Below, piece by piece: positions 22,753-26,515 of a stretch of DNA of 26,806 bases. Under the pieces are notes generated by a model, which worked only from the letters and a program-made list of their open reading frames with translations, was not told where the DNA came from and did not search any database. The stretch spans positions 1-26,806 of the IMG/VR virus record IMGVR_UViG_3300025759_000573. The stretch is one strand, 5' to 3'. A program made the translations under genes and the position numbers. This DNA is from a virus. How positions within the stretch are numbered: the first letter of the stretch is position 1; each line of letters opens with the position of its first letter.

Positions 22753-23094
22753 ATGTTCAAACTTCTCATTGCGAGTGGTGTCGTCGTTTCAGCAGCTGTG
22801 CTGGCATCTCCTGCTCAAGCCGACTGGTACGTCAACCCTGAGCTGAACATGTCAGCTGGGCTGGATTCTGGAACGGGATCAGGCATTCTCGAAGGTCACA
22901 TTGGGTATGACTTCGACAACGGTGCCTACGTGCAGGCTGGTCCTGCTGCAATCTTCCCTGATGCAGGTGACAAAGAGATCGAGCTGACCGGCAAAGCTGG
23001 TATCAGCGGTGGTCCTCTTTACGGTGAGGTTTCTTTCAGCACTGGCGATGAAGTCGGCCTTGGTTTCAAGACTGGAGCCAAGTTCAGCTTCTGA
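22753..23094 (+). CDS. Exported beta-rich protein (outer-membrane-like)
   Basis: The 113-residue precursor has a Sec signal peptide (MFKLLIASGVVVSAAVLASP then AQA, predicted cleavage before DWYVNPE). The mature part alternates aromatic/hydrophobic and polar residues (LEGHIGYDFDNGAYVQAGPA, then YGEVSFSTGDEVGLGFKTGA) and ends in Phe (KFSF), a pattern typical of beta strands in outer-membrane barrels. At about 90 residues it would be a very small barrel, or a periplasmic beta protein. A strong terminator follows, so it can be the end of a late transcript. Its role is unknown; a modified host surface during infection is one possibility. Confidence 0.7.
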   Translation: MFKLLIASGVVVSAAVLASPAQADWYVNPELNMSAGLDSGTGSGILEGHIGYDFDNGAYVQAGPAAIFPDAGDKEIELTGKAGISGGPLYGEVSFSTGDEVGLGFKTGAKFSF

Positions 23095-23131: not shown

Positions 23132-23166
23132 AGCCCCCGTACTTGTGCAGAGCGCGGGGGCTTTTT
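23132..23166 (+). terminator. Intrinsic terminator
   Basis: AGCCCCCG (23132-23139) pairs perfectly with CGGGGGCT (23155-23162) around a 15-base loop, and a run of five T ends at 23166. It lies 38 bases after the stop of the exported protein gene. The next gene starts 17 bases after the T run. Confidence 0.85.
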
Positions 23167-23182
23167 GTTGACCCAAACGATT

Positions 23183-23422
23183 ATGCAAAAGGTCTACAAC
23201 GTGCTCGGCGTGCTGGGCTTCGTGATGTCTGGAACGTTGGTTGGGCTGAGCATTGCTGCTTTTGCTCGCATCCCAGGATGGATTGATGACTACGCAGCAA
23301 CCATTACTGATGACATCACTGGTACGGTGACTGAAATGGTGCCGGGTCAAGTTGAAGAACTGATGCCTGAGATCCCTGAGCTACCTAAAGCAACTGGTCC
23401 TGCTATCCCATCTATTCAGTGA
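23183..23422 (+). CDS. Small one-TM membrane protein
   Basis: The 79-residue product begins QKVYNVLGVLGFVMSGTLVG and continues LSIAAFARIPGWIDDYAATI; one membrane span is expected at about residues 8-27. The rest is acidic with a Pro-rich end (EMVPGQVEELMPEIPELPKA). I used the ATG at 23183 because the upstream TTG codons lie in the terminator. It is translationally coupled to the next gene by a four-base overlap. It may be a cytosolic-facing membrane anchor; no function is recognised. Confidence 0.6.
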   Translation: MQKVYNVLGVLGFVMSGTLVGLSIAAFARIPGWIDDYAATITDDITGTVTEMVPGQVEELMPEIPELPKATGPAIPSIQ

Positions 23423-23943
23423 AGATTGAGGTTTTTGATAATCAGGTGCCTTTTTCCGTTCGCGAAAAAGCGCTTGATTACTGTTCACGCACCAATTTCA
23501 CTCTTGGTTGGACAGATCGACCTGTTGTTGACAATGAAAAGTCTGTCCCTAATGTCCATGCGTCTTGGAGCCAAGAACAGCTAGACGCCAGCGGGATCTT
23601 CACTTACATCGCCCCGTGCATAGAGGAAACGGCTTTTTTCACGTCTCGACGGATTGAAAGCGCAGTGGTGAATCTGGTACGTCCTTCAGACGTGCATTAC
23701 ATCCACTCGCACCCCGGCAAGCAGGTTGCGTTGTACTACTGCAATCTGGACTGGGAGGACGGTTGGTACGGAGAAACCTTATTCCACGACCCAAAAGACT
23801 TGAGCAGGATCAGTTTTGCGTCGTCTTACACGCCAGGCAGAATCATTTTGTTTGACGGCAGCATCCCCCATGCAATCAGGCCGCAGTCAATCAATGGTCC
23901 TAAGTACCGTATCTCGCTGACTGTCCTGCTTTGCGAGGACTAG
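23419..23943 (+). CDS. 2OG-Fe(II) oxygenase-like protein
   Basis: The 174-residue protein uses a GTG start overlapping the previous stop. It shows the double-stranded beta-helix signature of 2-oxoglutarate/Fe(II) dioxygenases: YIHSHPGKQVALYYCNLDWE (His96 and His98), WYGETLFHD (Glu119), a PGRIILFDGSIPHAIRPQS strand pair with the distal His151, and KYRISLTV with Arg164 for 2-oxoglutarate. Such enzymes hydroxylate proteins or modify bases, and many cyanophages carry them. The position of the usual acidic metal ligand holds His98 (HSH instead of HxD), so iron binding is not certain. Its stop shares the CTAG at 23940-23943 with the minus-strand gene. Confidence 0.75.
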   Translation: MKIEVFDNQVPFSVREKALDYCSRTNFTLGWTDRPVVDNEKSVPNVHASWSQEQLDASGIFTYIAPCIEETAFFTSRRIESAVVNLVRPSDVHYIHSHPGKQVALYYCNLDWEDGWYGETLFHDPKDLSRISFASSYTPGRIILFDGSIPHAIRPQSINGPKYRISLTVLLCED

Positions 23944-24254
23944 GTGATCATCTTGGTATTGGCAGTTGGATCGTCGTCATGAGCTTCAGGCCCGAAGCCT
24001 TCAGCCTTAATTTTTGCCATATCAAGTTCTGGCGCGGGTGCTTGAGGTTCCTGCTCAAACGACGCCAACCATTCGCGTAAAGCATCACCAGTTGGTGTGC
24101 CTTTAGGCCACTTCACCCACTTGAGGATTGCTTTTGGATCGGTAAATGGCCTGGCAGATTTGCCGCACAGTACGGTGTAGACAACAGGCGGTCCTTCACG
24201 TCTGCGGTTACGTTCAATCCAAAGTTGACCTGCTGTAAACCGCTCTGACTTCAT
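23940..24254 (-). CDS. Conserved-type protein of unknown function on the minus strand
   Basis: The 104-residue product begins KSERFTAGQLWIERNRRREG, then PPVVYTVLCGKSARPFTDPK, AILKWVKWPKGTPTGDALRE and WLASFEQEP, followed by an acidic, Pro/Ala-rich tail. The Trp-rich basic core looks folded; the tail looks disordered. It is fitted exactly between two plus-strand genes: its stop shares CTAG at 23940-23943 with the oxygenase stop, and its start shares CATG at 24252-24255 with the next gene's start. That leaves no intergenic room for promoters. I do not recognise a function. Confidence 0.65.
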   Translation of the reverse strand: MKSERFTAGQLWIERNRRREGPPVVYTVLCGKSARPFTDPKAILKWVKWPKGTPTGDALREWLASFEQEPQAPAPELDMAKIKAEGFGPEAHDDDPTANTKMIT

Positions 24255-24777
24255 GGAGATCCGAGAGATCGTTGTGCCTGAGATTAACGTGGTTCACGAT
24301 TTGCCACAGGTAGCAATACCGCAAGCACCGCCGGTCACCCTAGATGTCGGCGTTCCAGTCATCAATTTGCCTCACTTCAATCCAATGGAGATGGAGCCTG
24401 AGGCTGAGCCAGAACCTGTTAAACCTGTCGCTCCAAGACCTGCTGATCCACCAGCTGCAGAACCACCACCAGTCAAACTCCCCAAAAGAGAAGAATCAAA
24501 ATCAGAAACACCGCCAGTAGTTCCAAAACCAAAGGTCGAAGAAAAGACACTGCCTCAACGCATCATCGAAGCAGTTCCAACCATTCCGCAAGCGGTCAAC
24601 ACCGCTGGAACGTCAGCGATTGCAGTGTCAGCAGCCTTGGCAACTCCCTTGCTGCTGAAGGCGATCAGGCCGACCATAAAAAAGTTGGCGAAGAAACTTC
24701 AAAAGGCATTGGGTAAGAAGGTCAAAGTAGAAAGCGTCAGGGAGCGGAGGAAGTTCCAGAGGTCGTTACGGGGATAG
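24253..24777 (+). CDS. Pro-rich protein with C-terminal hydrophobic segment
   Basis: The 174-residue protein opens with EIREIVVPEINVVHDLPQVA, then passes through an extended Pro/Glu-rich region (about residues 46-98). Near residues 115-138 there is a hydrophobic stretch, AVNTAGTSAIAVSAALATPL then LLKAI, followed by a strongly basic end (KKLAKKLQKALGKKVKVE, with RERRKFQRSLRG last). This is the layout of a membrane-tethered or membrane-active protein with an extended spacer. The start ATG sits in the CATG shared with the minus-strand gene. The 3' end overlaps the minus-strand gene at 24737 by 41 bases. Confidence 0.65.
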   Translation: MEIREIVVPEINVVHDLPQVAIPQAPPVTLDVGVPVINLPHFNPMEMEPEAEPEPVKPVAPRPADPPAAEPPPVKLPKREESKSETPPVVPKPKVEEKTLPQRIIEAVPTIPQAVNTAGTSAIAVSAALATPLLLKAIRPTIKKLAKKLQKALGKKVKVESVRERRKFQRSLRG

Positions 24778-25534
24778 AATGGGTGTGTGGAACGGGCCGG
24801 TAAACACGCACGTCACGACAGACTTTTTCGTAAGGGCTGCCTTTGGCGAAGCGAATACCCTTCATCATCAGCTCACCGCAATGCTTTAGTCGGCTGATCT
24901 CGAAGTCAAGCCGTTTGTTGGCGAGAGCCTGTTGCTGAATCGCAAGCTGCGTATCGACTGCTTCTTTACAGCGTCGTTGCAGACCTTGGTCCAGTGGGAT
25001 GGTTGCCTGAACAGATAAGCCCAGATTCCAGTTGTGGTTGTCCTTTTGTCCTGTGCGCGTGTCTTTGAAGAAGAGCACGTCGCCTGGATTGTCTAACCGA
25101 CCATCGTCGTTCAGATCGGAAAGGTCATAGACCGGATCTGGATAGCTGTATTCGTAGGGCAGCCCCCATGATTTGGTGCGGTTGAGGTATGGCGTGACAG
25201 TCAGTGTTGGACCTTGGCATTGAATGTTGCCGCCATAGGTGTTGGTAATTGCTGAGCCCTGCATGATCTGCACAGCCTGGTTAGACACCGACCCAGATGA
25301 TGTGGCAGTTGGCGATGCGGTTGCAGAGATTCCGCCAACGTCTTGCGCGTTGACTGGAGCAGTGGCGATTATTCCGAGAAGGAGGAAACCGTATCGGTAA
25401 CGCTTGTGATTTCGGTGGTGCGTTGAATGGTGGTGACGTTCGACAAGCCCGGTCCCTTCAGGCTTTCGACGAACTGAAAGGCTTCTCCAGGTTTGACGAT
25501 TGACCAGTTTGGTCGTTCTCCTAAGGAGGTCCAT
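24737..25534 (-). CDS. Exported protein with a dockerin-like calcium loop (start unresolved)
   Basis: The frame carries 265 codons. A signal peptide is clear but sits about 49 residues in: GFLLLGIIATAPVNA, cleaved before QDVGG. The mature part has GGNIQCQGPTLTVTPYLNRT, then YSYPDPVYDLSDLNDDGRLD, and a helical LQRRCKEAVDTQLAIQQQAL segment. D-L-N-D-D-G-R-L-D matches an EF-hand/dockerin calcium loop. Between the only ATG (25534) and the signal peptide there is no ATG, GTG or TTG in frame; from 25534 it overlaps the upstream gene by 166 bases. So the start is uncommon, or a frameshift from the upstream gene joins them. No function is recognised. Confidence 0.65.
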   Translation of the reverse strand: MDLLRRTTKLVNRQTWRSLSVRRKPEGTGLVERHHHSTHHRNHKRYRYGFLLLGIIATAPVNAQDVGGISATASPTATSSGSVSNQAVQIMQGSAITNTYGGNIQCQGPTLTVTPYLNRTKSWGLPYEYSYPDPVYDLSDLNDDGRLDNPGDVLFFKDTRTGQKDNHNWNLGLSVQATIPLDQGLQRRCKEAVDTQLAIQQQALANKRLDFEISRLKHCGELMMKGIRFAKGSPYEKVCRDVRVYRPVPHTHSIPVTTSGTSSAP

Positions 25535-25761
25535 CCGTTGACCGTTGTGTTGGAGACGGGGTTAATTGCGCCGTCTGGCTTGATGTTTACACCGCTAGCA
25601 CTGTATTCAAACCCCGTTGAATAGTTCTCACTGACAATCGTCTCAGTGACCTTACTGGTTGTCTCTGTATGAGACGACATTGTGCCCTGCGTGAAGTTGG
25701 GGATCACAGGAACAGCGTGAGCCGCTGGAGCGGATAGCAACAGCAGCAGAAGCCAGCGCAT
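25369..25761 (-). CDS. Exported Thr/Ser-rich protein
   Basis: The 130-residue precursor begins MRWLLLLLLSAPAAHA, a clean Sec signal peptide, with cleavage before VPVIPNFTQG. The mature part is Thr/Ser/Val-rich and beta-predicted (TMSSHTETTSKVTETIVSEN, then KPDGAINPVSNTTVNGWTSL) and has no cysteine. The ATG at 25761 overlaps the upstream stop; a GTG three bases earlier (25764) is possible. It is the third gene of a minus-strand operon and its 3' end lies inside the frame of the next gene. Function is not recognised; a surface or periplasmic role in the host is inferred from the signal. Confidence 0.7.
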   Translation of the reverse strand: MRWLLLLLLSAPAAHAVPVIPNFTQGTMSSHTETTSKVTETIVSENYSTGFEYSASGVNIKPDGAINPVSNTTVNGWTSLGERPNWSIVKPGEAFQFVESLKGPGLSNVTTIQRTTEITSVTDTVSSFSE

Positions 25762-26252
25762 CACTTGATGGTGATTTCAGTCACGAGCTGACCTACAGCC
25801 AGCGTGTTTGCTCCACCACCAACGATTGTCATGCCACCGTCAGAGGAGATCGTGCCTGCCAAGTCACCTGCCGTGCCAGAAGCCGTGGATGTCAGGCTGC
25901 CGAAGTTGCCAACAGCGCCAGTGGTGACAGCGGATGTTGGAACGGCATCAGCTTGGCGGTAGGTCTGGCTAAAGGAGAACGCATCCCCTGGAACGTCTTG
26001 CGTTGCGGAGATCGTGCCGGGTGCGTAAACACCGCTAGTAATCGTGCCAGCAGAAACTGTGTTGGCGGTAGTGCCGTCAGTTGTGTCGATGTTGGTGCCG
26101 GAGATGCTGAACGAAGAGCCAATCCGTTCTGCTGTGGTTACAGCACCACCGACTTGCAGCTGAACCGACGACATGATTTTGTGCTGGAGATCAGCACGGG
26201 CAGGCAATCCAGCTGCCAATGTGATGCCCAATACCAAAAGTGTCCGGGTCAT
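25761..26252 (-). CDS. Exported low-complexity beta-rich protein
   Basis: The 163-residue precursor starts with MTRTLLVLGITLAAGLPARA, a Sec signal, followed by DLQHKIMSSVQLQVGGAVTT. The mature part is rich in Gly/Ser/Thr/Ala (ISGTNIDTTDGTTANTVSAG, then TSAVTTGAVGNFGSLTSTAS) and ends LVTEITIK. The repeated T/G/S strands suggest a beta-solenoid or fibrous fold. It has no cysteine. It overlaps the upstream gene by four bases (ATGA) and the downstream gene by one (TGATG). I recall similar proteins from cyanophages and Synechococcus genomes, but no function is known. Confidence 0.7.
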   Translation of the reverse strand: MTRTLLVLGITLAAGLPARADLQHKIMSSVQLQVGGAVTTAERIGSSFSISGTNIDTTDGTTANTVSAGTITSGVYAPGTISATQDVPGDAFSFSQTYRQADAVPTSAVTTGAVGNFGSLTSTASGTAGDLAGTISSDGGMTIVGGGANTLAVGQLVTEITIK

Positions 26253-26515
26253 TTGATGCCAGCTTTGGTGTCTTTGTTGTCAACAATAGTCGGCTTCTTA
26301 TTTCCATTGCCATTGCTCTTGCGCTCGATGCCAAATGAAGCCATTGCGCCAGTCAGCAGAGAAGCGACAAAGGTGTTGTCCATCTTCATTTGGGGGTAGA
26401 TCCCTAGGTACGAGATGGTCAGCAGTGTGGCGCTCCAGGCGAGGACACCGCATTTGACGACATCAGCAACGCAGATGCCTTCCTTTTCGTGCTGCTCTTC
26501 GGGGTTGTTGGCCAT
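26249..26515 (-). CDS. Small two-TM membrane protein, possible holin
   Basis: The 88-residue product has an acidic N-terminus (ANNPEEQHEKEG), a membrane span at about residues 18-38 (VVKCGVLAWSATLLTISYLG), a second short span at about 46-62 (NTFVASLLTGAMASFGI) and a polar Lys/Asn-rich tail. Size, two spans and a charged tail fit a class II holin. No endolysin is visible nearby, so lysis is only one option. It is the first gene of the minus-strand operon that also encodes three exported proteins. Promoter elements would lie in the 42-base gap to the plus-strand gene at 26558. Confidence 0.65.
   Translation of the reverse strand: MANNPEEQHEKEGICVADVVKCGVLAWSATLLTISYLGIYPQMKMDNTFVASLLTGAMASFGIERKSNGNGNKKPTIVDNKDTKAGIK

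Follow-up and report, generated by a model that had tools for sequence, protein, structure and literature searches.

Four genes, g1 to g4, tightly packed on the minus strand at 24737-26515 of a 26,806-base virus record from IMG/VR (IMGVR_UViG_3300025759_000573; 'the window' denotes the whole record), are on balance probably the main part of a transferable, non-canonical lysis or envelope-disruption cassette of marine cyanophages. The virus in the window is itself a cyanophage, its tail being of the lambda type (J-like protein and minor tail proteins). The case for lysis or envelope disruption is strong but indirect: conservation, gene order, gene overlap, predicted export, a topology pattern, the genomic slot and, among the records examined, an inverse association with endolysins were observed, and from them we infer that g1 may have holin activity, that a spanin-like partnership may exist and that the outcome may be lysis itself. 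The most abundant photosynthetic cells of the ocean are killed in large numbers by marine cyanophages; if this reading is true, genes in hundreds of sequenced cyanophages would gain a testable function, ocean lysis timing would gain measurable genes, the exit of viruses without recognisable lysis genes would be explained in part, and the misleading labels 'plasmid stability' and 'OMP1' would be corrected.

Adjacent genes of the set overlap by 4 nt (g1/g2), 1 nt (g2/g3) and 166 nt (g3/g4), with the following features:

26249..26515, minus strand: g1, 88 aa with two hydrophobic segments, PF20048 (DUF6450) and phrog_21865/721, a candidate holin by its holin-like anatomy
25761..26252, minus strand: g2, 163 aa, predicted to be exported, phrog_564, commonly labelled 'OMP1', distantly related to g3, with alleles that swap
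25369..25761, minus strand: g3, 130 aa counted from the ATG (131 from the listed GTG), predicted to be exported, PF19847 (DUF6322)/phrog_650, modelled with two very long Ser/Thr-rich strands
25369..25534, minus strand: overlap of the g3 end with the g4 start, 166 nt in different frames, with a conserved g4 ATG
24737..25534, minus strand: g4, 265 aa, phrog_848/1755, a basic N-terminal extension followed by a signal-like segment and a mature domain
25346..25399, minus strand: signal-like hydrophobic segment of g4, about residues 46-63, with an A-x-A end and a cleavage site placed by eye

An earlier note on this DNA had described a minus-strand operon encoding a small protein with two transmembrane (TM) segments and three proteins with Sec signals. 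The four open reading frames (ORFs) are present as it had placed them, and each matches a conserved family to which no function is assigned. Two hydrophobic segments were found in g1, and g2 and g3 carry short N-terminal signal-like segments with A-x-A ends (these ends, like the lipobox check below, were read by eye), whereas in g4 such a segment follows only after about 46 residues. As the note had stated, the scanned window proteins matched no lysis family; its placement of the set right after the tail fibres was loose, with ~2.7 kb and several small genes intervening. The proposal that exported products act at the envelope fits all observations, export being predicted.

By tblastn against 50,697 phage records, g1 was found in 430, g2 in 398, g3 in 412 and g4 in 419, and the records carrying them are by name nearly all Synechococcus or Prochlorococcus phages. 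The loci of the set are gp164-gp167 in Syn9 and PSSP7_042-046 in P-SSP7. A host origin of the cassette was rejected, as 84,980 bacterial and archaeal genomes yielded only 18 loci, most on contigs of metagenome-assembled genomes with non-cyanobacterial names. We take these matches for misbinned phage DNA, and with so few and seemingly misbinned loci in cellular genomes, g1-g4 are therefore phage genes. A 188-kb contig (NZ_RMVE01000006.1; L278) filed as the isolate Nonlabens xiamenensis, which carries a cyanophage-type g4 at 50% identity, is probably a phage contig or contamination.

In the clade of the window, the commonest gene order is p2738-g1-g2-g3-g4 facing phrog_570/phrog_568 (52/80 loci). 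In the T4-like group, g2-g3-g4 faces phrog_570/phrog_568/g1 in 38 of 85 loci, many of the remainder being truncated or without a detected member, and in the T7-like group a proline (Pro)-rich gene, g1, g3, g4 and p2738 follow one another on one strand (59/90 loci). Most T7-like loci have no g2. The cassette is common to sipho-, T4-like and T7-like cyanophages, a finding new here, and its occurrence in three virion types implies that it is not tied to one virion design. Moreover, instead of a four-gene operon of one phage, g1-g4 are a portion of a larger cassette with a convergent arm, and the following members adjoin them in the window:

24253..24777, plus strand: convergent partner phrog_570, with a Pro-rich acidic N-terminal part, a C-terminal hydrophobic segment and a basic tail, predicted N-out/C-in
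23165..23422, plus strand: phrog_568, a small one-TM protein of the convergent arm, labelled 'plasmid stability'
26558..26731, plus strand: phrog_2738 (p2738), a 57-aa helical protein adjoining g1; similar small proteins stand after g4 in T7-like cyanophages

In P-GSP1 (L094:5246-5962) and P-SSP3 (L096:5297-6007), a p2738-like helical segment lies in frame at the g4 C-terminus.

The lysis reading draws first on the slot that the cassette occupies in T7-like genomes. In SS120-1, P-SSP10, P-GSP1, S-RIP1, P-SSP3, S-TIP37, 9515-10a and P-SSP7, the cassette is flanked by large structural or fibre genes on one side and by the large terminase on the other, an explicit fibre label being present only in S-TIP37 and P-SSP7 among these eight. 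In T7, the corresponding region is occupied by the holin and Rz/Rz1. Furthermore, the endolysin of S-CBP1 occupies exactly this slot, which is also new here: S-CBP1 and S-RIP1 share the preceding fibre-like protein (40% over 484 aa) and the next gene (49%), as well as a coiled-coil protein (54.5%) and a small-terminase-like protein (80%), and between these shared flanks S-RIP1 encodes the Pro-rich protein, g1, g3 and g4, while S-CBP1 encodes a 65-aa protein and an endolysin (phrog_10051, E 8e-154). The C39/glucosaminidase endolysin (found in P-SS2, S-CBP1 and S-CBS1) has in S-CBP1 the slot that the cassette has in S-RIP1, but is unrelated to it in sequence and is a recognisable enzyme. The coiled-coil neighbour was considered as XhlA-like (PF10779, E=0.07), a match not used as evidence.

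Cassette and endolysin also tend to occur inversely among the records examined. No stand-alone peptidoglycan hydrolase was found in 17 complete g4-bearing genomes searched with seven Pfam families. The hydrolase-family matches in these genomes fall only within frames of at least 961 aa, that is, C39 and lysozyme matches in one 1126-aa frame of S-RIM14, an amidase match in a 1034-aa frame of S-WAM1, an SLT match in a 961-aa frame of P-SCSP1h and weaker matches in frames of >1000 aa of S-TIM5 and Syn9, plus one 243-aa frame of P-GSP1, which is DUF7227. This DUF7227 protein (L291:368-1069) also scores as a C39 peptidase. A scan of 45 P-SSP7 and 54 MED4-117 ORFs likewise gave no peptidoglycan hydrolase match. 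Conversely, g4 was absent by profile from nine of the 11 phages with a stand-alone endolysin (P-SS2, S-PM2, S-CBP1, S-N03, ACG-2014f, S-CBS1, S-SRM01, S-B68, S-CBS2, S-CAM7 and DSL-LC03), the exceptions being S-CAM7 and DSL-LC03. S-PM2, the sole T4-like cyanophage without the cluster described in 2010 (see below), has both C39 and lysozyme genes, and Syn5 has neither g4 nor a C39 match. Among 29 records, two carry both endolysin and g4, 17 g4 only, nine an endolysin only and one neither (Fisher test, p=5e-5; p=0.0017 if three cassette-bearing records with hydrolase matches are counted as endolysin-bearing); the test is descriptive, the records being related and picked for either trait and the P-SCSP1h SLT match being left out.

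A late-promoter motif of T4-like phages, NATAAATA (as given in the available part of PMC2984593), lies no more than 80 nt ahead of the computed start of g2 in 31 of 69 T4-like loci, as compared with 42 of 3450 random windows (1.2%) and with one of those 69 loci upstream of g3. The motif positions are spread out because some of the g2 starts were computed too far downstream. With this promoter motif as the sole basis, we infer that the cassette may be expressed late.

The Pro-rich protein contains 14-23% Pro (clade medians) before its C-terminal hydrophobic segment, with an acidic N-terminal part and a strongly basic tail. The N-terminal part is the more negative in 207/207 loci and the hydrophobic segment lies in the second half in 198/207, and an N-out/C-in topology is therefore predicted. 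According to the available part of Kongari et al. 2018 (PMC6139136; this limit applies to all statements from it), Syn9, P-SSP7 and every one of the 16 T4-like cyanophages studied by Sullivan et al. are spanin-less, and an N-out/C-in inner-membrane protein with a C-terminal TM, together with an outer-membrane protein, could substitute for spanins. Thus, in phages that were listed as having no spanins, the Pro-rich protein is predicted to have the topology earlier suggested for unconventional spanins, a correspondence new here. Compared with Rz/Rz1 and unimolecular spanins (PMC6139136), the cassette is alike in its overlapping genes, its membrane and exported partners, its conserved Cys, its Pro-rich, presumably periplasmic segment and its place in T7-like genomes, but it lacks a lipobox, the TM of the Pro-rich protein is C-terminal instead of N-terminal, and no coiled-coil i-spanin of known type was recognised in it.

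For g1, two hydrophobic peaks of at least 1.2 were found in 55/69, 49/49 and 67/68 loci of the three clades, and the median C-terminal charge is +2 to +4, so that the small size, TM segments and basic C-terminus expected of a holin are all present. A 17.5-like holin of T7 resembles g1 in being small, with two hydrophobic segments, an acidic start and a basic end, and in its T7-like slot; however, the family matches of g1 were only DUF6450 and PHROGs of unknown function, with no curated holin family among them.

Based on the slot, the endolysin exchange, the inverse occurrence, the Pro-rich topology and the late motif, lysis is the reading preferred, and among the options raised by the earlier note the 'unknown lysis system' is best supported, by T7-like synteny, endolysin exchange and the lack of stand-alone peptidoglycan hydrolases. 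At a late stage of infection, g1 would act like a holin and make the inner membrane permeable, and g2, g3 and g4, exported by Sec, would have their site of action in the periplasm or at the outer membrane. The Pro-rich protein, with its C-terminal TM, would span the periplasm from the inner membrane and, together with the exported proteins, might do the work of the coliphage Rz/Rz1 spanins. A bolder form, which we consider quite unlikely, is lysis without endolysin, in which the cassette would replace holin, endolysin and spanins together in many marine cyanophages and g3/g4 would be a new envelope-rupturing class, exchanged as a unit for an endolysin by T7-like phages.

Several observations weigh against lysis as the function. 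DSL-LC03 carries the whole cassette plus two endolysins and S-CAM7 an endolysin plus a divergent g3/g4 pair, so strict mutual exclusion of cassette and endolysin was discarded; the sample behind the inverse occurrence was chosen on one trait or the other and is not a census. (The S-CAM7 pair, L290:1091-1969, is stripped-down and has its own signal-like segments.) In Syn9 and the other T4-like phages read, the cassette is near gp43 and regA, away from known lysis genes. The T7-like Pro-rich gene is phrog_9426, a different PHROG from phrog_570, with which it was grouped by anatomy alone. P-SS2, S-PM2 and Syn5 are on the 2018 spanin-less list yet have no g4, so outer-membrane rupture without the cassette is possible; Kongari et al. 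(PMC6139136) also note that cyanobacterial outer membranes may simply be fragile. For g4, no catalytic motif, no Pfam or PDB match and no significant fold match was found, its AlphaFold model giving no PDB match that reached E 0.001. No lipobox Cys was found in g2, g3 or g4 of the window, nor seen in g3 or g4 of the relatives printed, and there is therefore no canonical o-spanin. Finally, the swapping of g2 alleles described below is unusual for a lysis part.

The coexistence of endolysin and cassette genes in DSL-LC03 and S-CAM7 implies that part of the cassette may do only the outer-membrane step. In this narrower form of the lysis reading, the set would replace spanins alone, with peptidoglycan cut by an unrecognised phage family or by host enzymes. 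It is possible, if doubtful: the endolysins plus g3/g4 relatives of those two phages and the overlap of the spanin-less list (PMC6139136) with cassette-bearing phages speak for it, but it does not account for the absence of the cassette from most endolysin-bearing phages examined. The readings weighed here are not exclusive gene by gene, and this one overlaps with the preferred one.

The gene g2 behaves differently from its neighbours. Among 873 locus pairs with identities of 90% or more in g3 and 85% or more in g4, g2 is <60% identical in 377, at least 80% in 464 and in between in 32. Thus g2 switches between two deep alleles with little change in the neighbouring genes, a behaviour typical of surface-specificity genes, and surface exclusion therefore remains a serious rival. 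Under it, the exported proteins would alter the outer membrane and block adsorption of competitors or of the phage's own progeny, with g2 as the specificity part; the envelope-remodelling or superinfection-exclusion option of the earlier note is even favoured, for g2, by the bimodal alleles. An outer-membrane role is consistent with three exported proteins and with the presence of a beta-barrel gene (PF24653) close by, and T4 superinfection (r) genes are missing in cyanophages according to the available part of PMC2984593. However, early exclusion is a poorer match than late action for the late-type motif that precedes g2 in T4-like loci, most T7-like loci lack g2, and exclusion leaves unexplained both the endolysin exchange at one locus and the absence of other stand-alone lysins; overall we judge it unlikely.

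A third alternative, that the products join the particle or aid tail-fibre maturation outside the cytoplasm as a virion or host-recognition accessory, appears very unlikely. Tail-fibre genes are nearby in the window, in T7-like phages and in S-SSM7, and the late-type promoter of T4-like loci would suit it, but tailed-phage virions assemble in the cytoplasm whereas g2-g4 carry predicted export signals. In addition, the S-TIM5 record labels g2, g3 and g4 'hypothetical' and some of their neighbours virion structural, and replication genes are the neighbours of the set in Syn9 and the other T4-like phages read.

Across 64 relatives, the mature g4 retains four invariant Cys (A2: C43, C126, C156 and C176), which fits an oxidising periplasm. 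Its model (predicted local distance difference test, pLDDT, 62; predicted template modelling score, pTM, 0.34) comprises a beta part and a 43-residue helix. The g3 model (pLDDT 72, pTM 0.33) has strands of 23-24 residues at its two ends, and its weak matches include stems of pore-forming proteins and phage tail or collar proteins; those to lysenin/aerolysin (Foldseek E 0.17-0.6, VIA Z <=3.9) are weak, as is the model at that pTM, and hint at a beta pore former. Both models are too weak for a fold claim, and PDB sequence searches on the pore-former idea for g3 gave nothing useful. No peptidoglycan hydrolase family appeared among the matches of the 64 g4 relatives (E up to 1), and none for g3. 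For the g3 of P-SSP7, a match to PraA/PraB (NCBIfam) at 1e-4 is far under the cut-off. A TolC-like half-barrel for g4, suggested by its strand-then-helix layout, was rejected, as TolC ranked only 45 in Foldseek (E 5.3) and there was no Pfam OEP match. By hhalign, g2 is a distant relative of g3 (probability 85.5% over 53 columns).

The g4 frame has no start codon near the signal segment, its first ATG lying inside g3. The overlap was surveyed in 258 sequences (257 loci plus the window), 255 with both genes readable and 242 complete upstream. An in-frame g4 ATG within g3 is kept in 240 of these 242 (L089 and L094 being without it), the overlap is exactly 166 nt in 155 loci, and shorter computed overlaps occur in L048 and L090. 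When g3 codons were shuffled synonymously with the protein kept, the g4 frame stayed open in a median of only 6.8% (73 loci), 3.4% (81) and 0.8% (68), and the g4 ATG was kept in 25%, 22% and 69%, for the three clades. At fourfold third positions, the overlap is less divergent than the remainder of g3 in each of the three clades (0.443 vs 0.484, 0.429 vs 0.585 and 0.334 vs 0.467), although g3 amino-acid divergence is not uniform between the two parts. Thus g4 starts inside g3 with a conserved ATG, which is new here, and its signal segment is therefore preceded by about 46 basic residues of weak conservation. A g3-g4 frameshift fusion, considered for want of a start near that segment, was rejected given the conserved upstream ATG. 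In P-SCSP1h, g4 has a plain signal segment at its start and an overlap of 56 nt; the family can therefore do without the long extension.

Part of this cluster had been named before: according to the available part of Sullivan et al. 2010 (PMC3037559), it was named in T4-like cyanophages without a function, is present in all but S-PM2 of 16 such phages and is possibly mobile. Based on the S-SSM7 record notes and tblastn, g2 corresponds to T4-GC 237, g4 to 235 and the gene at the phrog_570 position to 234, with 218 in the arm. The homologues of T4-GC 235, 237 and 234 are thus together in S-SSM7 as in that cluster, whereas the available part of PMC3037559 gives no export, overlap, g1, sipho- or T7-like occurrence, endolysin exchange or function. 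In the literature searched, no paper was recognised as assigning lysis to the cluster. The 'plasmid stability' label of phrog_568 has been carried into PMC3037559 and PMC9602691 (available parts), and nothing here supports a plasmid role.

Two further genes are close to the cassette on the plus strand of the window. At 22753-23094, a small predicted beta-barrel protein with a signal-like segment matches PF24653 (Phage_OMP). At 23419-23943, a 2OG-Fe(II) oxygenase-like protein is encoded, the best PHROG of which is labelled 'DNA endonuclease V', and annotated oxygenases are located in or beside the cassette in S-SSM7 and S-TIP37.

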